Positions 20,662 to 55,819 of a stretch of DNA of 64,000 bases are shown piece by piece. A model generated the notes under the pieces. The model did no database searches. It worked only from the letters and a program-made list of their open reading frames with translations, and had not been told where the DNA came from. This stretch comes from Collimonas antrihumi (GTDB lineage Bacteria > Pseudomonadota > Gammaproteobacteria > Burkholderiales > Burkholderiaceae_D): assembly GCF_018304965.1 (NCBI RefSeq), contig NZ_JAGQED010000005.1:62001-126000 (forward strand), given 5' to 3'. Each line of letters begins with the position of its first letter. The first letter of the stretch is position 1. A program made the position numbers and the translations under genes.

Positions 20662-21729
20662 TCAGGCCGGGCTGCTATTCAGCAAACGGCGTTGTTTTAC
20701 CGCCGCTGCCAAACCTTCCAGCACTGCCACGCTTTCTTCCCAGTTGATGCAGCCATCGGTTACCGATTGGCCGTAGACCAGCTCCTTGCCCGGCACCAGA
20801 TCCTGGCGGCCGGCAATCAGGTGCGATTCAACCATCACACCCACGATACGATCGTCGCCAGCGGCGATCTGGTTGCCGATATCGGCGCATACCGGGATTT
20901 GATTTTCCGGCTTCTTCGAGCTGTTGGCGTGCGACGCATCGATCATCAGGCGCGATGCCAGGCCACTGTTGGCGATATCCTTGCAAGCCGCTTCGACACT
21001 GGCTGCGTCATAGTTCGGCGCCTTGCCGCCGCGCAGAATGATATGGCAATCTTCATTGCCGTTAGTCGACACAATCGCCGAGTGCCCGCCCTTGGTCACC
21101 GACAAGAAATGATGCGGCTGCGAAGCGGCCTTGATGGCATCCACTGCAATCTTGATATTGCCATCGGTGCCGTTCTTGAAACCGACCGGGCATGACAAGC
21201 CGGAAGCCAGCTCGCGATGCACCTGCGATTCGGTAGTACGGGCGCCGATTGCGCCCCAGCTGATCAGGTCGGCAATGTATTGCGGGCTGATCACATCCAG
21301 GAATTCGGTACCTGCCGGCAGGCCCAGCTCGTTAATGTTCAACAACAGCTCGCGCGCCATGCGCAGGCCGTCGTTGATACGGAAGCTGTTGTCCATGTAC
21401 GGATCGTTGATCAAACCTTTCCAGCCGACCGTGGTGCGCGGTTTTTCGAAGTAGACCCTCATCACGATTTCCAGCTCGCCCTTGAAACGTTCGCGCTCAC
21501 CCACCAAACGGCCCGCATATTCCATCGCCGCCTTGGTATCGTGGATCGAGCACGGTCCGATCACCACCATCAGGCGGTCATCCTGCCCATGCAAAATGCG
21601 ATGCAACGCAATCCGCGAATTGGCGGCTGTTTCCGCCACTTTCTCGGAGCAGCCGAATTCGCGAATCAAATGGGATGGTGGAACTAATTCTTTCATTTCT
21701 CGTATGCGCAGATCATCGGTGCGTTGCAT
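20662..21729 (-). CDS. aroG: 3-deoxy-7-phosphoheptulonate synthase (DAHP synthase)
   Basis: 355 aa, class I-alpha enzyme that joins PEP and erythrose 4-phosphate to start the shikimate pathway. MVVIGPCSIHD, RVYFEKPRTTVGWKG and LMIDASHANSSKK are diagnostic active-site segments. The ATG at 21729 follows CCAGGAGAAAAAC; the frame opens at a TTG 18 bp upstream, but that extension contains the ribosome-binding site. Its leader encodes a Phe/Tyr-rich peptide and an intrinsic terminator, so it is probably attenuated by aromatic amino acids. Confidence 0.95.
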   Translation of the reverse strand: MQRTDDLRIREMKELVPPSHLIREFGCSEKVAETAANSRIALHRILHGQDDRLMVVIGPCSIHDTKAAMEYAGRLVGERERFKGELEIVMRVYFEKPRTTVGWKGLINDPYMDNSFRINDGLRMARELLLNINELGLPAGTEFLDVISPQYIADLISWGAIGARTTESQVHRELASGLSCPVGFKNGTDGNIKIAVDAIKAASQPHHFLSVTKGGHSAIVSTNGNEDCHIILRGGKAPNYDAASVEAACKDIANSGLASRLMIDASHANSSKKPENQIPVCADIGNQIAAGDDRIVGVMVESHLIAGRQDLVPGKELVYGQSVTDGCINWEESVAVLEGLAAAVKQRRLLNSSPA

Positions 21730-21761
21730 GTTTTTCTCCTGGCTCAAAAGTGACTGGGTAT

Positions 21762-21790
21762 AAAAAAACCGCCATCGCTGGCGGTTTTTT
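21762..21790 (-). terminator. attenuator terminator in the aroG leader
   Basis: On the minus strand AAAAAACCGCC-AGCGAT-GGCGGTTTTTTT, a strong stem with a U-tract, lies between the leader peptide and aroG and ends 33 nt before the aroG ATG. Its 5' arm ACCGCC can instead pair with GGCGGT in the leader ORF (plus-strand 21836-21841). Confidence 0.85.
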
Positions 21791-21813
21791 AGAAATTTCG
21801 GTTTGCTCTTTAC

Positions 21814-21894
21814 TTACGAACGCTTACCGCTTTTCACCGCCGTGGGGCTGGAATAGCTAAAGTAAAAAAAGAAATAAGCGCGTGCGAAAGACAT
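21814..21894 (-). CDS. aroG leader peptide (Phe/Tyr attenuation)
   Basis: 26-residue ORF whose residues 7-14 are YFFFYFSY, i.e. seven Phe/Tyr codons in eight. It ends with TAA 24 nt before the terminator stem on the minus strand. CGCTTA just before the run (plus 21875-21880) can pair with TAAGCG near the end (plus 21821-21826), giving the 1:2 hairpin. A ribosome stalled on Phe/Tyr codons would block that pairing and free GGCGGT to sequester the terminator arm. The peptide layout matches pheL-type leaders. It is too short for most gene finders. Confidence 0.85.
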   Translation of the reverse strand: MSFARAYFFFYFSYSSPTAVKSGKRS

Positions 21895-21977
21895 GTTTTT
21901 CAGTAAAGGATTATTAAAATCAAGACCAATAGTGCAGGATTTCCGGCGGTTTGGCAAGACCCGTATTAGCACATTAT

Positions 21978-22399
21978 TTATATACAACAATATAATAGCG
22001 GTCCCGATACCGGTCCGCCAAGGCCAGGAGCCCGGCCATCAATGCATGGCAACCGCATGCCCCGAGCCGACGATGGGCGCAATGCCATCGCGCCGGTCCA
22101 GCCGCCGCCCCACGCGCCTAAAGCGATACCGACATTAAACGCCGCTATATTCAAACCGGAAGCAACATCCACTGCACGCGGTGCATGGCGCTCAGCCTGT
22201 TGCACCACGTACACTTGCAAACCTGGCACATTACCGAAGGCGAAAGCGCCCCACGCCAACACCGTCAGGACTGCCAGCCAGCGGGCGGAACGGAAACGCC
22301 AAGGCTGGCGGCAATAGTTGGAATCAAGCCAACGATAATGAATTCCGTCGTACCGATGGCAAAAGCGCTGAGCGTAAGCGCCCAAAGTGCGAGCGGCAT
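21978..22399 (-). pseudogene. remnant of an MFS efflux transporter (YdhP/AraJ-like)
   Basis: The N-terminal 40 residues are clear (MPLALWALTLSAFAIGTTE, then FIIVGLIPTIAA). They end abruptly near 22270 and the sequence jumps in another frame to what looks like transmembrane helices 10-12 (LTVLAWGAFAFGNVPGLQVY, SGLNIAAFNVGIALGAWGG). A further frame change affects the end. An internal deletion of roughly 230-260 codons, estimated from a normal length of about 390, plus frameshifts make it non-functional. Confidence 0.85.
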
Positions 22400-22567
22400 G
22401 ATGTTTTTCCTATTTGAAGTTTGACGCCATGTAGTTTGATGGCTGGCGTGACAAAGAAAAACAGCTGTGACCACAATACATATTTGACTAATAATCAAAT
22501 ATGTACGTGGTTTGATGCGAATTTTGCATAGAGCCTACAGTGTGCGGAGACTTGTACTCCGTAGCCC

Positions 22568-22726: not shown

Positions 22727-23470
22727 ATGAACGCCGTCATCGGTAATGCCACACAGGCCGTCGACGCCATCGCGGACCGGCTTACGCGCATCAACTGGGA
22801 AAACGTCTATCAAGATCTGGACAGCTACGGCAGCGCACTACTGCCGCGCTTGATAACACCCGAGGAATGCACTGCACTGATTGCACTTTATCCGCGCGAC
22901 GATATCTTTCGCAGCCGGGTCGTGATGGAACGCCATGGCTTTGGCCGTGGCGAATACAAATATTTCAGCTATCCCCTGCCTGAGCTGATCGGCGACTTGC
23001 GCAACGCCCTCTACCCTTTGCTGGCACCGCTTGCCAACCGCTGGAACGAAACCATGAATATAGCCGCCCGCTTCCCGCAACGACACGCTGATTTCATCGC
23101 CCGATGTCACACCGCGGGCCAGTTGCGGCCGACGCCGCTCATGCTGCAGTACGGTGAGGGCGACTATAACTGCCTGCATCAGGACCTGTACGGAGAACAC
23201 GTTTTTCCGCTCCAGGCAGCAATCCTGTTATCCGCACCGAGGCGCGATTTCAGCGGTGGCGAATTCGTAATGACGGAGCAACGGCCACGCATGCAATCGC
23301 GCCCAGAGGTAATTCCTTTGGGCCAAGGCGATGCGGTCGTGTTTGCCGTCCATAATCGCCCGGTACAAGGCCAGCGCGGCGCTTATAGAGTAAATTTACG
23401 ACATGGCGTCAGCCGTATCCGCTCCGGATCGCGGCACACGCTAGGCGTGATTTTCCATGACGCTTCATGA
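22727..23470 (+). CDS. 2OG-Fe(II) oxygenase of the Ada regulon
   Basis: 247 aa from the ATG after GGGAGACAATTG; the codon before it is a TTG in frame. The double-stranded beta-helix has the iron site HQDLYGEH (H-x-D) with a distal His and 2OG-binding Arg in the C-terminal region (RVNLRHGVSRIRSG). It is not AlkB but a separate family, close to COG3826. It lies 10 bp before alkB behind an Ada-type promoter, so a role in alkylation damage is likely; the substrate is unknown. Confidence 0.85.
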   Translation: MNAVIGNATQAVDAIADRLTRINWENVYQDLDSYGSALLPRLITPEECTALIALYPRDDIFRSRVVMERHGFGRGEYKYFSYPLPELIGDLRNALYPLLAPLANRWNETMNIAARFPQRHADFIARCHTAGQLRPTPLMLQYGEGDYNCLHQDLYGEHVFPLQAAILLSAPRRDFSGGEFVMTEQRPRMQSRPEVIPLGQGDAVVFAVHNRPVQGQRGAYRVNLRHGVSRIRSGSRHTLGVIFHDAS

Positions 23471-23480
23471 AGAGCATTAC

Positions 23481-24134
23481 ATGACTTTCGATTTATTCGA
23501 TGCAGAAGAACTGACCGATAAGCGGCAACAACAATTAGGGCAAGACGCATGCGTATTGCGCGGCTTCGCTACGCCTTACGTAGCGCAATTGTTGCCGTTA
23601 CTGGAGGCAATTCAACAGGCATCGCCATTCCGCCATCTGGTGACGCCCGGTGGCTTTCGCATGTCGGTGGCCATGACTTGTTGCGGTCCTCTCGGCTGGA
23701 CCAGCGACCGCCGCGGTTATCGCTACAGCGCTGTCGATCCGGAGCACGGCCGCAACTGGCCGCCAATGCCAGAGATTTTTTTACAGTTGGCGCAAGCCGC
23801 AGCGGCACAAGCCGGCTTCGATGGCTTCCAGCCCGATGCTTGCCTGATCAACCGCTACCAGCCGGGAACCAAGCTGTCGCTGCACCAAGACAAGGATGAG
23901 CAGGACTACGCTGCCCCCATCGTTTCCGTATCGCTGGGCATTCCTGCGATATTCCTGTTCGGCGGCCAGGAGCGCGCCGACAAGAGCGTTCGCGTGCCAC
24001 TGTTCCATGGCGATGTCGTGGTCTGGGGCGGCGCCGACCGCCTGCGTTATCACGGCGTGCTGCCGCTGAAGGACGCCGAACATCCCTTGCTCGGCAGGCA
24101 AAGAATCAATCTGACTTTTCGCAAGGCAGCCTAA
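23481..24134 (+). CDS. alkB: AlkB-type DNA oxidative demethylase
   Basis: 217 aa from the ATG with GAAGAG upstream; an ATG at 23457 would add 8 residues. Fe(II)/2OG dioxygenase that removes methyl groups from 1-methyladenine and 3-methylcytosine. Active-site elements are PDACLINRYQPGTKLSLHQD (H-x-D), RYHGVLP (second His) and the closing RINLTFR with two Arg. The substrate loop MTCCGPLGW is typical. Middle gene of the Ada-controlled operon, with its stop overlapping the alkA start (TAATG). Confidence 0.95.
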   Translation: MTFDLFDAEELTDKRQQQLGQDACVLRGFATPYVAQLLPLLEAIQQASPFRHLVTPGGFRMSVAMTCCGPLGWTSDRRGYRYSAVDPEHGRNWPPMPEIFLQLAQAAAAQAGFDGFQPDACLINRYQPGTKLSLHQDKDEQDYAAPIVSVSLGIPAIFLFGGQERADKSVRVPLFHGDVVVWGGADRLRYHGVLPLKDAEHPLLGRQRINLTFRKAA

Positions 24135-24814
24135 TGTCGAGTTCGACAGAATCAATCATGATCGCAGCGGATATATCAGAGCACGCCTACCGTAAAGCAG
24201 AGAAATTCCTGTCAGCGCTGGACTCCGACTGGGCGCGTCATATAGCTCATATCGGCCCTTGCCGCCACGCGTCCAAACCAGCGCGTGAGCCGTATGAAGC
24301 ACTGGTGCGAGCGATTGCTTACCAACAGTTGCATGCCCGCGCCGGCGACGCCATCCTGGCGCGCATGCTCGCCTTGTTTGGCGATAGCGCCTTTCCGACT
24401 GCACAGCAACTGCTGGATACGCCCGTCGATATATTACGCAGCTGCGGGTTTTCCGCCAGCAAAATCGCGACGATCCATGGCATTGCACAAGCTGCCTTGG
24501 ATGGCATCGTTCCACTACGTGCGGAAGCGCTGACGACCAGCGACGATGCCCTCATCGAGCGCCTGACAAGTTTGCGCGGCGTCGGCCGCTGGACCGTCGA
24601 GATGTTGTTGATTTATACATTGGAACGGTCGGACATTTTGCCTGCCGACGATTTCGGTGTGCGCGAAGGTTATCGACGTCTGAAAAACATGGAGCAGACA
24701 CCAACCAAAAAACAGATCAGCGATATCGGCCTGGCCTGGAGTCCCTATCGAACCGTGGCCGCCTGGTATCTGTGGCGTTTGCCGAAGAATCCGGCGGCTA
24801 GTGAAACTGTCTGA
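24134..24814 (+). CDS. alkA: DNA-3-methyladenine glycosylase II
   Basis: 226 aa. Helix-hairpin-helix glycosylase: the hairpin LRGVGRWTVEMLLIY and the catalytic Asp region LPADDFGVREGYRR are clear. It excises 3-methylpurines. It is shorter than E. coli AlkA because the N-terminal beta-domain is missing, which is usual for this compact form. Translationally coupled to alkB. Confidence 0.93.
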   Translation: MSSSTESIMIAADISEHAYRKAEKFLSALDSDWARHIAHIGPCRHASKPAREPYEALVRAIAYQQLHARAGDAILARMLALFGDSAFPTAQQLLDTPVDILRSCGFSASKIATIHGIAQAALDGIVPLRAEALTTSDDALIERLTSLRGVGRWTVEMLLIYTLERSDILPADDFGVREGYRRLKNMEQTPTKKQISDIGLAWSPYRTVAAWYLWRLPKNPAASETV

Positions 24815-55401: not shown

Positions 55402-55528
55402 GACATTCATTGATAAGCATGTTTCAGCTTGTTAATAGAAGTGAGCAAGTTCTAGAAGGGGCAGCGTTACGCGAGGCTTCTTGCTTTTACGGCTCGTGTG
55501 ATTGTTATTATTTGAAAGACGCTATTTT

Positions 55529-55732
55529 ATGGCAACAGGTACAGTCAAGTGGTTCAACGATTCTAAGGGCTTCGGCTTTATCACTCCGGATGACGGCGGT
55601 GAAGATTTGTTTGCACACTTTTCCGCAATCCAGATGAACGGCTTCAAGACTCTCAAAGAAGGTCAAAAAGTCCAGTTCGAAGTCACGCAAGGCCCTAAAG
55701 GCAAGCAAGCTTCTAACATCCAGGCTCCTTAA
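55529..55732 (+). CDS. cspA: cold-shock protein, CspA family
   Basis: 67 aa. OB-fold RNA chaperone: [19 protein letters not shown] carries RNP1 (KGFGFI) and DLFAHFS is RNP2. The ATG at 55529 gives the standard length; the frame opens upstream but homology begins here. Divergent from clpS and ended by an intrinsic terminator. Confidence 0.96.
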
Positions 55733-55756
55733 TTCAGTTGATTAAGTGGTCTTTGT

Positions 55757-55785
55757 AAAAAACCTCACCGCGGTGAGGTTTTTTT
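55757..55785 (+). terminator. intrinsic terminator of cspA
   Basis: AAAAAACCTCACCG/CGGTGAGGTTTTTT perfect symmetric stem with T7, 25 bp past the cspA stop. Confidence 0.9.
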
Positions 55786-55819
55786 ATTGCCCCGCCATAG
55801 CGCATGTCGGCAACGCACG

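Follow-up and report, generated by a model that had tools for sequence, protein, structure and literature searches.

Transcription of aroG in Collimonas antrihumi is very probably governed by ribosome-mediated attenuation, in which the supply of charged tRNA-Phe and tRNA-Tyr would decide whether RNA polymerase reaches the gene. This is the best explanation, as judged from sequence comparison, for a leader region that combines a short reading frame dense in aromatic codons, an antiterminator and a terminator helix predicted to exclude one another, and the aroG gene directly downstream. The window analysed is the whole stretch of 64,000 nucleotides, and the features of the leader region are collected in Table 1. 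The initial annotation had proposed, on the minus strand, a 26-codon open reading frame containing YFFFYFSY ahead of a terminator and aroG, and this was confirmed at 21894-21814. The segments it named for the stems 1:2 (CGCTTA/TAAGCG), 2:3 (GGCGGT/ACCGCC) and 3:4 (ACCGCC/GGCGGT) are each present exactly as given. Its core reading, a Phe/Tyr leader upstream of aroG whose 2:3 and 3:4 helices compete, is likewise supported, as 135 of 150 loci keep this arrangement and the helices covary.

Table 1. Features of the aroG leader region in the window.
Feature	Position	Strand	Basis
-35-like TTGCCA, putative leader promoter	21952..21957	-	commonest best -35 across loci
-10-like CACTAT, 17 nt from TTGCCA	21929..21934	-	weak: 8/12 matches over both hexamers
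Leader peptide ORF MSFARAYFFFYFSYSSPTAVKSGKRS, 26 codons	21814..21894	-	predicted translation
Control codons YFFFYFSY, leader codons 7-14, 7/8 Phe/Tyr	21853..21876	-	ORF reading
Segment 2 core GGCGGT, antiterminator 5' arm	21836..21841	-	pairing compared with shuffles, covariation
Inner antiterminator arm GAAAAGCGGT, predicted partner 21792-21802	21826..21835	-	prediction in the window only
Segment 3 ACCGCC, common to antiterminator and terminator	21780..21785	-	covariation
Intrinsic terminator (segments 3 and 4), 12-bp stem, GCGA loop, U tract	21762..21790	-	folding
Shine-Dalgarno AGGAG of aroG	21736..21740	-	sequence
aroG, class I DAHP synthase, 355 aa, ATG at 21729	20662..21729	-	NF006723, PF00793

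The identity of AroG rests on a match to NCBIfam NF006723 (593 bits, cut-off 568), Pfam PF00793 being matched as well, and its closest protein relatives are those of Collimonas sp. OK607 and OK242 (98-99% identical). The arms of the terminator stem, AAAAAACCGCCA and TGGCGGTTTTTT, span 21790-21763 and the U tract reaches 21762, 32 nt from the aroG start codon. The leader stop lies 84 nt upstream of the aroG ATG, with the terminator and its U tract in between. A simple terminator scan missed the hairpin at 21790-21762; folding shows it plainly.

The same architecture was found in 135 of the 150 aroG upstream regions compared. A rule (CCGCC...GGCGG-TTT plus an upstream GG[C/T]GG) placed the terminator between leader ORF and aroG in 133 of them, and two more (L103, L126), in which leader and terminator are present and an extra G-C pair escaped the rule, were recognised by eye. 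By set, this corresponds to 57 of 70 regions in the first, made up of the 70 best places of an aroG similarity search with the window included, and to 78 of 80 relatives in the second (76 by rule). The two sets are not independent, since species overlap (e.g. L005/L073, L030/L086, L049/L123). Eight places at 63-67% identity were left out of the first set, and G061, G069 and G097 entered later via the covariance model described below. The check on relatives suggested in the initial annotation thereby supports its core reading: the peptide and the 2:3 and 3:4 helices are kept in the 135 loci, with covariation, while stem 1:2 stays at chance level. On its other point, the start of transcription, the promoter-like element described below lies 5' of the leader, and the gap from U tract to start codon is just 32 nt.

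One of the 15 exceptions is a contig end (L060) and the other 14 are leaderless (L030, L049, L057, L062-L069, L072, L086, L123). In six of these (L030, L049, L062, L067, L086, L123) a TldD-like gene (PF19289) ends about 40-180 nt 5' of aroG. As the same gene also occurs on 70 of 133 leader-bearing loci, these six may have lost the leader by deletion. DAHP synthase paralogs were used as a control, taking 20 of 40 places (36-59% identity overall, about 41-59% for the 20, among which G074 and G081 are the single match of their genome). None of their 20 upstream regions has five or more aromatic residues in eight codons, the best having four. A search of plasmids returned only diverged aroG matches, none spanning 80% of the query.

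The distribution was followed further with a covariance model, R1, built from 46 leaders and holding the terminator pairs only. Among 300 genomes searched in the order it has matches at E<=0.01 in 119 and none in 181, and many of the weaker matches span the terminator alone. At E<=4.9e-5 all 73 matches are full length and lie before AroG, in 14 families; the 73 comprise 71 model-found loci together with L058 and L070, and 8 of the 73 genomes supplied rows of the model. Among the 85 fetched R1 loci AroG is present at 73, and the 12 without it all have E values of 8.7e-5 or weaker. At class level E<=1e-4 is reached in 9 of 369 genomes, six of them outside the order. Four of these six were examined (L273 and L275 were left out): L272 and L274 lie before AroG, and L278 and L279 do not.

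Of the 135 loci that show the architecture, 130 have at least five aromatic residues in eight codons, the automatic count giving three or four for L017, L038, L043, L052 and L141, and so do 69 of the 73 model-found AroG loci, the others being L242 and L257 (4/8), L253 (3/8) and L256 (1/8). In the last two, both of family f43, segment 2 and the terminator are kept before aroG and the aromatic run is nearly or wholly lost. The codon run can thus decay, as L256 and similar loci keep terminator and segment 2 despite few aromatics, and a decay or a change of the sensor is possible in L253 and L256. The codons of the run are exchanged mostly within the aromatic set, and in the frame picked for its richness the aromatic fraction is 0.79, compared with 0.28 and 0.21 in the two others. 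When TTT-AGC is taken as anchor for 77 distinct leaders, an aromatic codon stands just before it in 75 and at the next position in 71; farther upstream His, Thr and Gly are common. The eight-codon windows of 154 distinct peptides hold 650 Phe, 279 Tyr and 48 Trp codons. Tyr is present in 146 of these peptides, at least twice in 103, and Trp in 45, located within the run in lineages such as Burkholderia/Paraburkholderia; only five have Phe alone.

Within its own 4.7 Mb genome the element stands alone in the places examined. Runs of six Phe/Tyr codons gave 14 matches at 10 places (the reversed pattern gave four matches), and eight of the places were checked, L157 and L159 being left out. A terminator within 220 nt downstream was found only at the aroG leader. 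A second Phe/Tyr leader was therefore rejected, as none of the seven other places examined has a terminator behind the run.

The position of the run fits a role in exposing segment 2. The last aromatic codon precedes segment 2 by a median of 14 nt (range 5-21, 93 loci), so that, given the size of its footprint, a ribosome halted on that codon would not cover segment 2. Behind the run, sequence, frame and length of the peptide are unconserved among relatives, and the GGCGG/GGTGG motif is kept even where the frame differs (L017, L041, L047, L104, L117, L140, L146, L150). Measured to its last base, the stop codon is 8 to 41 nt beyond the core in the loci covered (L038 and the GGTGG-bearing L017 were left out). 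The Collimonas leader has its stop codon starting 19 nt beyond segment 2, and a ribosome waiting there may therefore just miss segment 2; it may act on the inner arm instead of the core. L017, from a genome of about 1.7 Mb in the same genus, keeps the RNA segments and part of the aromatic run, with a frame shift inside a T tract. In Massilia/Janthinobacterium-type leaders (e.g. L031, L032) the stop directly follows AVE, and the RNA 3' of this stop (GGTTCACGTAGC-like) resembles the still-coding VHVKA/VHVAA stretch of L037, L044 and L048.

How well segment 2 pairs with the terminator's 5' arm was compared with dinucleotide shuffles in 93 loci of limited similarity (ungapped identity below 85%). 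The pairing is better than in the shuffles at p<=0.05 in 82 of them, and in the window (p=0.025). The GGCGG/CCGCC core yields little covariation, as it is near-invariant and itself part of the search rule. RNAalifold on close relatives (69 of 70 antiterminators, L092 left out) returned six 2:3 core pairs with zero covariation, and the inner helices predicted in the window are absent from this consensus. At the base adjoining the core the three segments vary in concert. In 91 loci its states in segments 2/3/4 include T-A-T (31), C-G-C (16) and A-T-A (4), and a Watson-Crick flank is formed by 2:3 in 55 loci (33.1, sd 3.8, in permutations) and by 3:4 in 81 (43.8, sd 3.9), neither being reached in 5000 permutations. 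These statistics, like the other covariation tests given here, ignore phylogeny. States that break 2:3 are also common (A-A-T in 15 and C-A-T in 5 of the 91), and the window, with C-A-T, itself has a C-A mismatch at the flanking 2:3 pair. The second flanking position is weaker, with 287 and 66 of 5000 permutations. Only 40% of an initial 81 distinct loci, mainly from Oxalobacteraceae, form the first flanking pair of 2:3; in this set the total helix extension is matched by 1 of 2000 permutations and the count of loci having one flanking pair or more by 36 of 2000.

Pairs were also counted over the 2:3 helix. Of the alignment cells 82.6% are paired, and the covariation is 0.106 compared with 0.067 when shuffled (0 of 500 for each measure), every slid version of 2:3 being lower in both. 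Two of the five measures are at the level of shuffles, namely the number of pairs altered in both partners (493 of 500) and that of additional pair types (282 of 500), and in these two the slides +1 to +3 exceed the true register. A G-U pair is retained despite a changed base in L017 and in L198/L204. When folded, RNA ending before segment 4 adopts 2:3 in all 93 loci, and with segment 4 included the terminator wins in 89. The choice between the helices must therefore fall during transcription, as 2:3 is favoured before segment 4 and the terminator after it. Covariation, folding in 93 of 93 loci and the 14-nt spacing, all of them evidence from sequence, support the antiterminator and the terminator as mutually exclusive helices.

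A protector stem 1:2 is a frequent, non-defining part of leader-peptide attenuators. The stem proposed at first, CGCTTA/TAAGCG, can be drawn in the window, yet its pairing does not differ from shuffles (p=0.22); p<=0.05 is reached in 12 of 93 loci, with a mean z of -0.47. As its pairing across loci is no better than that of shuffles, 1:2 was rejected as a conserved part, and by this evidence the proposed attenuator would have no need of it.

A promoter-like element is present 5' of the leader in most loci examined. Of 92 loci, 59 have TTGCCA as their top-scoring -35, while the top-scoring -10 is TATAGT in 35 of them and CACTAT in 17. A best two-hexamer score of at least 9 is reached by 47% of the loci versus 7% of mononucleotide shuffles. 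In the window the site TTGCCA-17-CACTAT is poor at the -10.

The proposed course of events is as follows. Transcription would begin 5' of the leader. With ample charged tRNA-Phe and tRNA-Tyr, the translating ribosome would traverse the aromatic codons and disturb segment 2 or the RNA behind it; segments 3 and 4 would then make the terminator and RNA polymerase would halt before aroG. If Phe or Tyr were scarce, the ribosome would stall on the aromatic run, about 14 nt before segment 2, and the free segment 2 would pair with segment 3 ahead of the synthesis of segment 4. With 2:3 formed there would be no terminator, and aroG would be transcribed. The same attenuator may sense Phe only, the Tyr (and Trp) codons being passengers, which we regard as somewhat unlikely. 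The prevalence of Phe in the codon windows given above speaks for it, and the C. glutamicum aroR leader (Phe-Tyr-Phe) is described as unaffected by Tyr availability (PMC11802643). Against it stands the retention of Tyr codons in nearly all distinct peptides and their repetition in 103 of 154.

Other readings would separate the terminator, or the peptide, from the control of aroG transcription. The hairpin might be the ordinary terminator of an upstream unit, the reading frame a chance one and the aroG promoter located downstream. Leaderless aroG genes do occur, and a simple promoter scan leaves the TTGCCA element uncalled and lists other weak sites upstream; just 32 nt, however, separate the U tract from the ATG, no promoter candidate from segment 2 to the ATG scores above 5/12, and the aromatic codons, the spacing and the three-way covariation are conserved, which makes this reading extremely unlikely. 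The terminated leader, an expected transcript of about 160 nt, might instead act mainly in trans, as small RNA or peptide, with control of aroG being secondary. The trp leader peptide peTrpL of Sinorhizobium offers a precedent (PMC7298713). The changing frame and length after the run argue against a conserved function of the peptide, and all strong model matches sit before aroG, so that such a main role appears very improbable. An effect of the leader on translation or stability of the aroG mRNA, by re-initiation or ribosome protection and not by termination, appears highly improbable too: leader ORFs have been proposed to raise expression via re-initiation (PMC4833913), but here the distance of 84 nt between leader stop and ATG is occupied by terminator and U tract, and the competition that is conserved is that of terminator and antiterminator. 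Attenuation by charged tRNA-Phe and tRNA-Tyr is thus the reading retained below.

The attenuation principle is that of E. coli pheA, where the leader pheL governs pheA in response to Phe; a Phe-rich leader and an attenuator, here a predicted one, are common to both systems, and the governed gene differs. Rfam RF01859 (Phe_leader) aligns end to end with the window's leader at 30.5 bits (E 0.0028); membership was rejected, the cut-off being 55 bits, and in 17 loci, the window's included, the leader has no match to any Rfam family at that family's cut-off. E. coli aroG, which encodes the same enzyme step, is under the TyrR repressor and feedback, i.e. a DNA-binding repressor there versus a leader here. 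Neshat et al. reportedly described in 2014 the aroR leader peptide before the aroF operon of C. glutamicum. The initial annotation had seen a different logic in the Collimonas leader; this holds in relation to E. coli aroG, but the principle is not new, given C. glutamicum aroR-aroF, a candidate before aroF of Acholeplasma and a putative aroF attenuator (PMC2659441).

In C. glutamicum, the accounts describe aroR as a Phe-Tyr-Phe leader before the aroF (DAHP synthase) operon (PMC11802643, PMC4046766). As described, it is alike in its aromatic leader, its DAHP synthase gene, ribosome-mediated attenuation and a reported response to Phe limitation; it differs in its host, an actinobacterium, and in having three named aromatic residues versus a long run. 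The Acholeplasma uORFC-13-1 is presented as a candidate uORF with Phe codon(s) and a terminator before aroF (PMC8632094). These are the features it shares with the leader of aroG, itself before a DAHP synthase gene; as reported there, its structure is another one, it is confined to Acholeplasma and environmental sequences, and it is itself a candidate. The same source mentions that attenuation of E. coli aroF was once hypothesized (PMC8632094). For Shewanella, a putative aroF attenuator sensing Tyr-tRNA is entered in Table 3 of a comparative study citing Camakaris 1980 (PMC2659441). It has in common that attenuation was proposed at a DAHP synthase gene, and differs, as far as a table entry tells, in being a gamma-proteobacterial aroF for the Tyr-sensitive isozyme. 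A further table of putative attenuators, which covers tyrA operons only, includes Bordetella parapertussis (PMC1173090), and TyrR regulons are described in gamma-proteobacterial lineages (PMC5343134). The literature search turned up no report of the element in beta-proteobacteria, where an earlier prediction may nevertheless exist; the putative aroG leader would thus add to a known principle a host group that is new by the literature searched.

Control of the first committed shikimate step by repressors and isozymes is a textbook case from E. coli. A TyrR-type HTH (PF18024) scores above cut-off in none of 15 genomes from the same genus as the window and in 6 of 60 relatives. The genome studied has one AroG-like match, and no class II DAHP synthase was found in it; a second PF00793 match of 287 aa we take to be probably KdsA. 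Tentatively, the leader may be the main aromatic sensor of much of the order, reading Phe and Tyr together (and Trp in Burkholderia/Paraburkholderia-like lineages), and gating the sole gene for an AroG-type DAHP synthase in Collimonas. It would then replace the E. coli logic of TyrR/TrpR and isozymes by a single gate for several amino acids, analogous to the multivalent ilv leaders. Such a widespread attenuator would explain the control of aromatic supply in those Burkholderiales where the TyrR domain is unseen above cut-off. The leader would also provide a ready marker for annotating aroG control across many genomes, and the natural mixtures of Phe, Tyr and Trp codons would form a series for asking which tRNAs are read.

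The surroundings of the locus show some further traits. On the minus strand, 5' of the leader, two overlapping ORF pieces in different frames occupy 21978-22498. By eye they resemble remnants of an internally deleted or frame-shifted MFS transporter gene; a Pfam search gave no match at 0.001 for these pieces. Neighbouring ORFs on the plus strand (23457-24814) resemble, also by eye, AlkB- and AlkA-type DNA repair proteins. The sole Rfam match of the window at the gathering cut-off is a cspA thermoregulator at 55413-55787 on the plus strand (85.4 bits).
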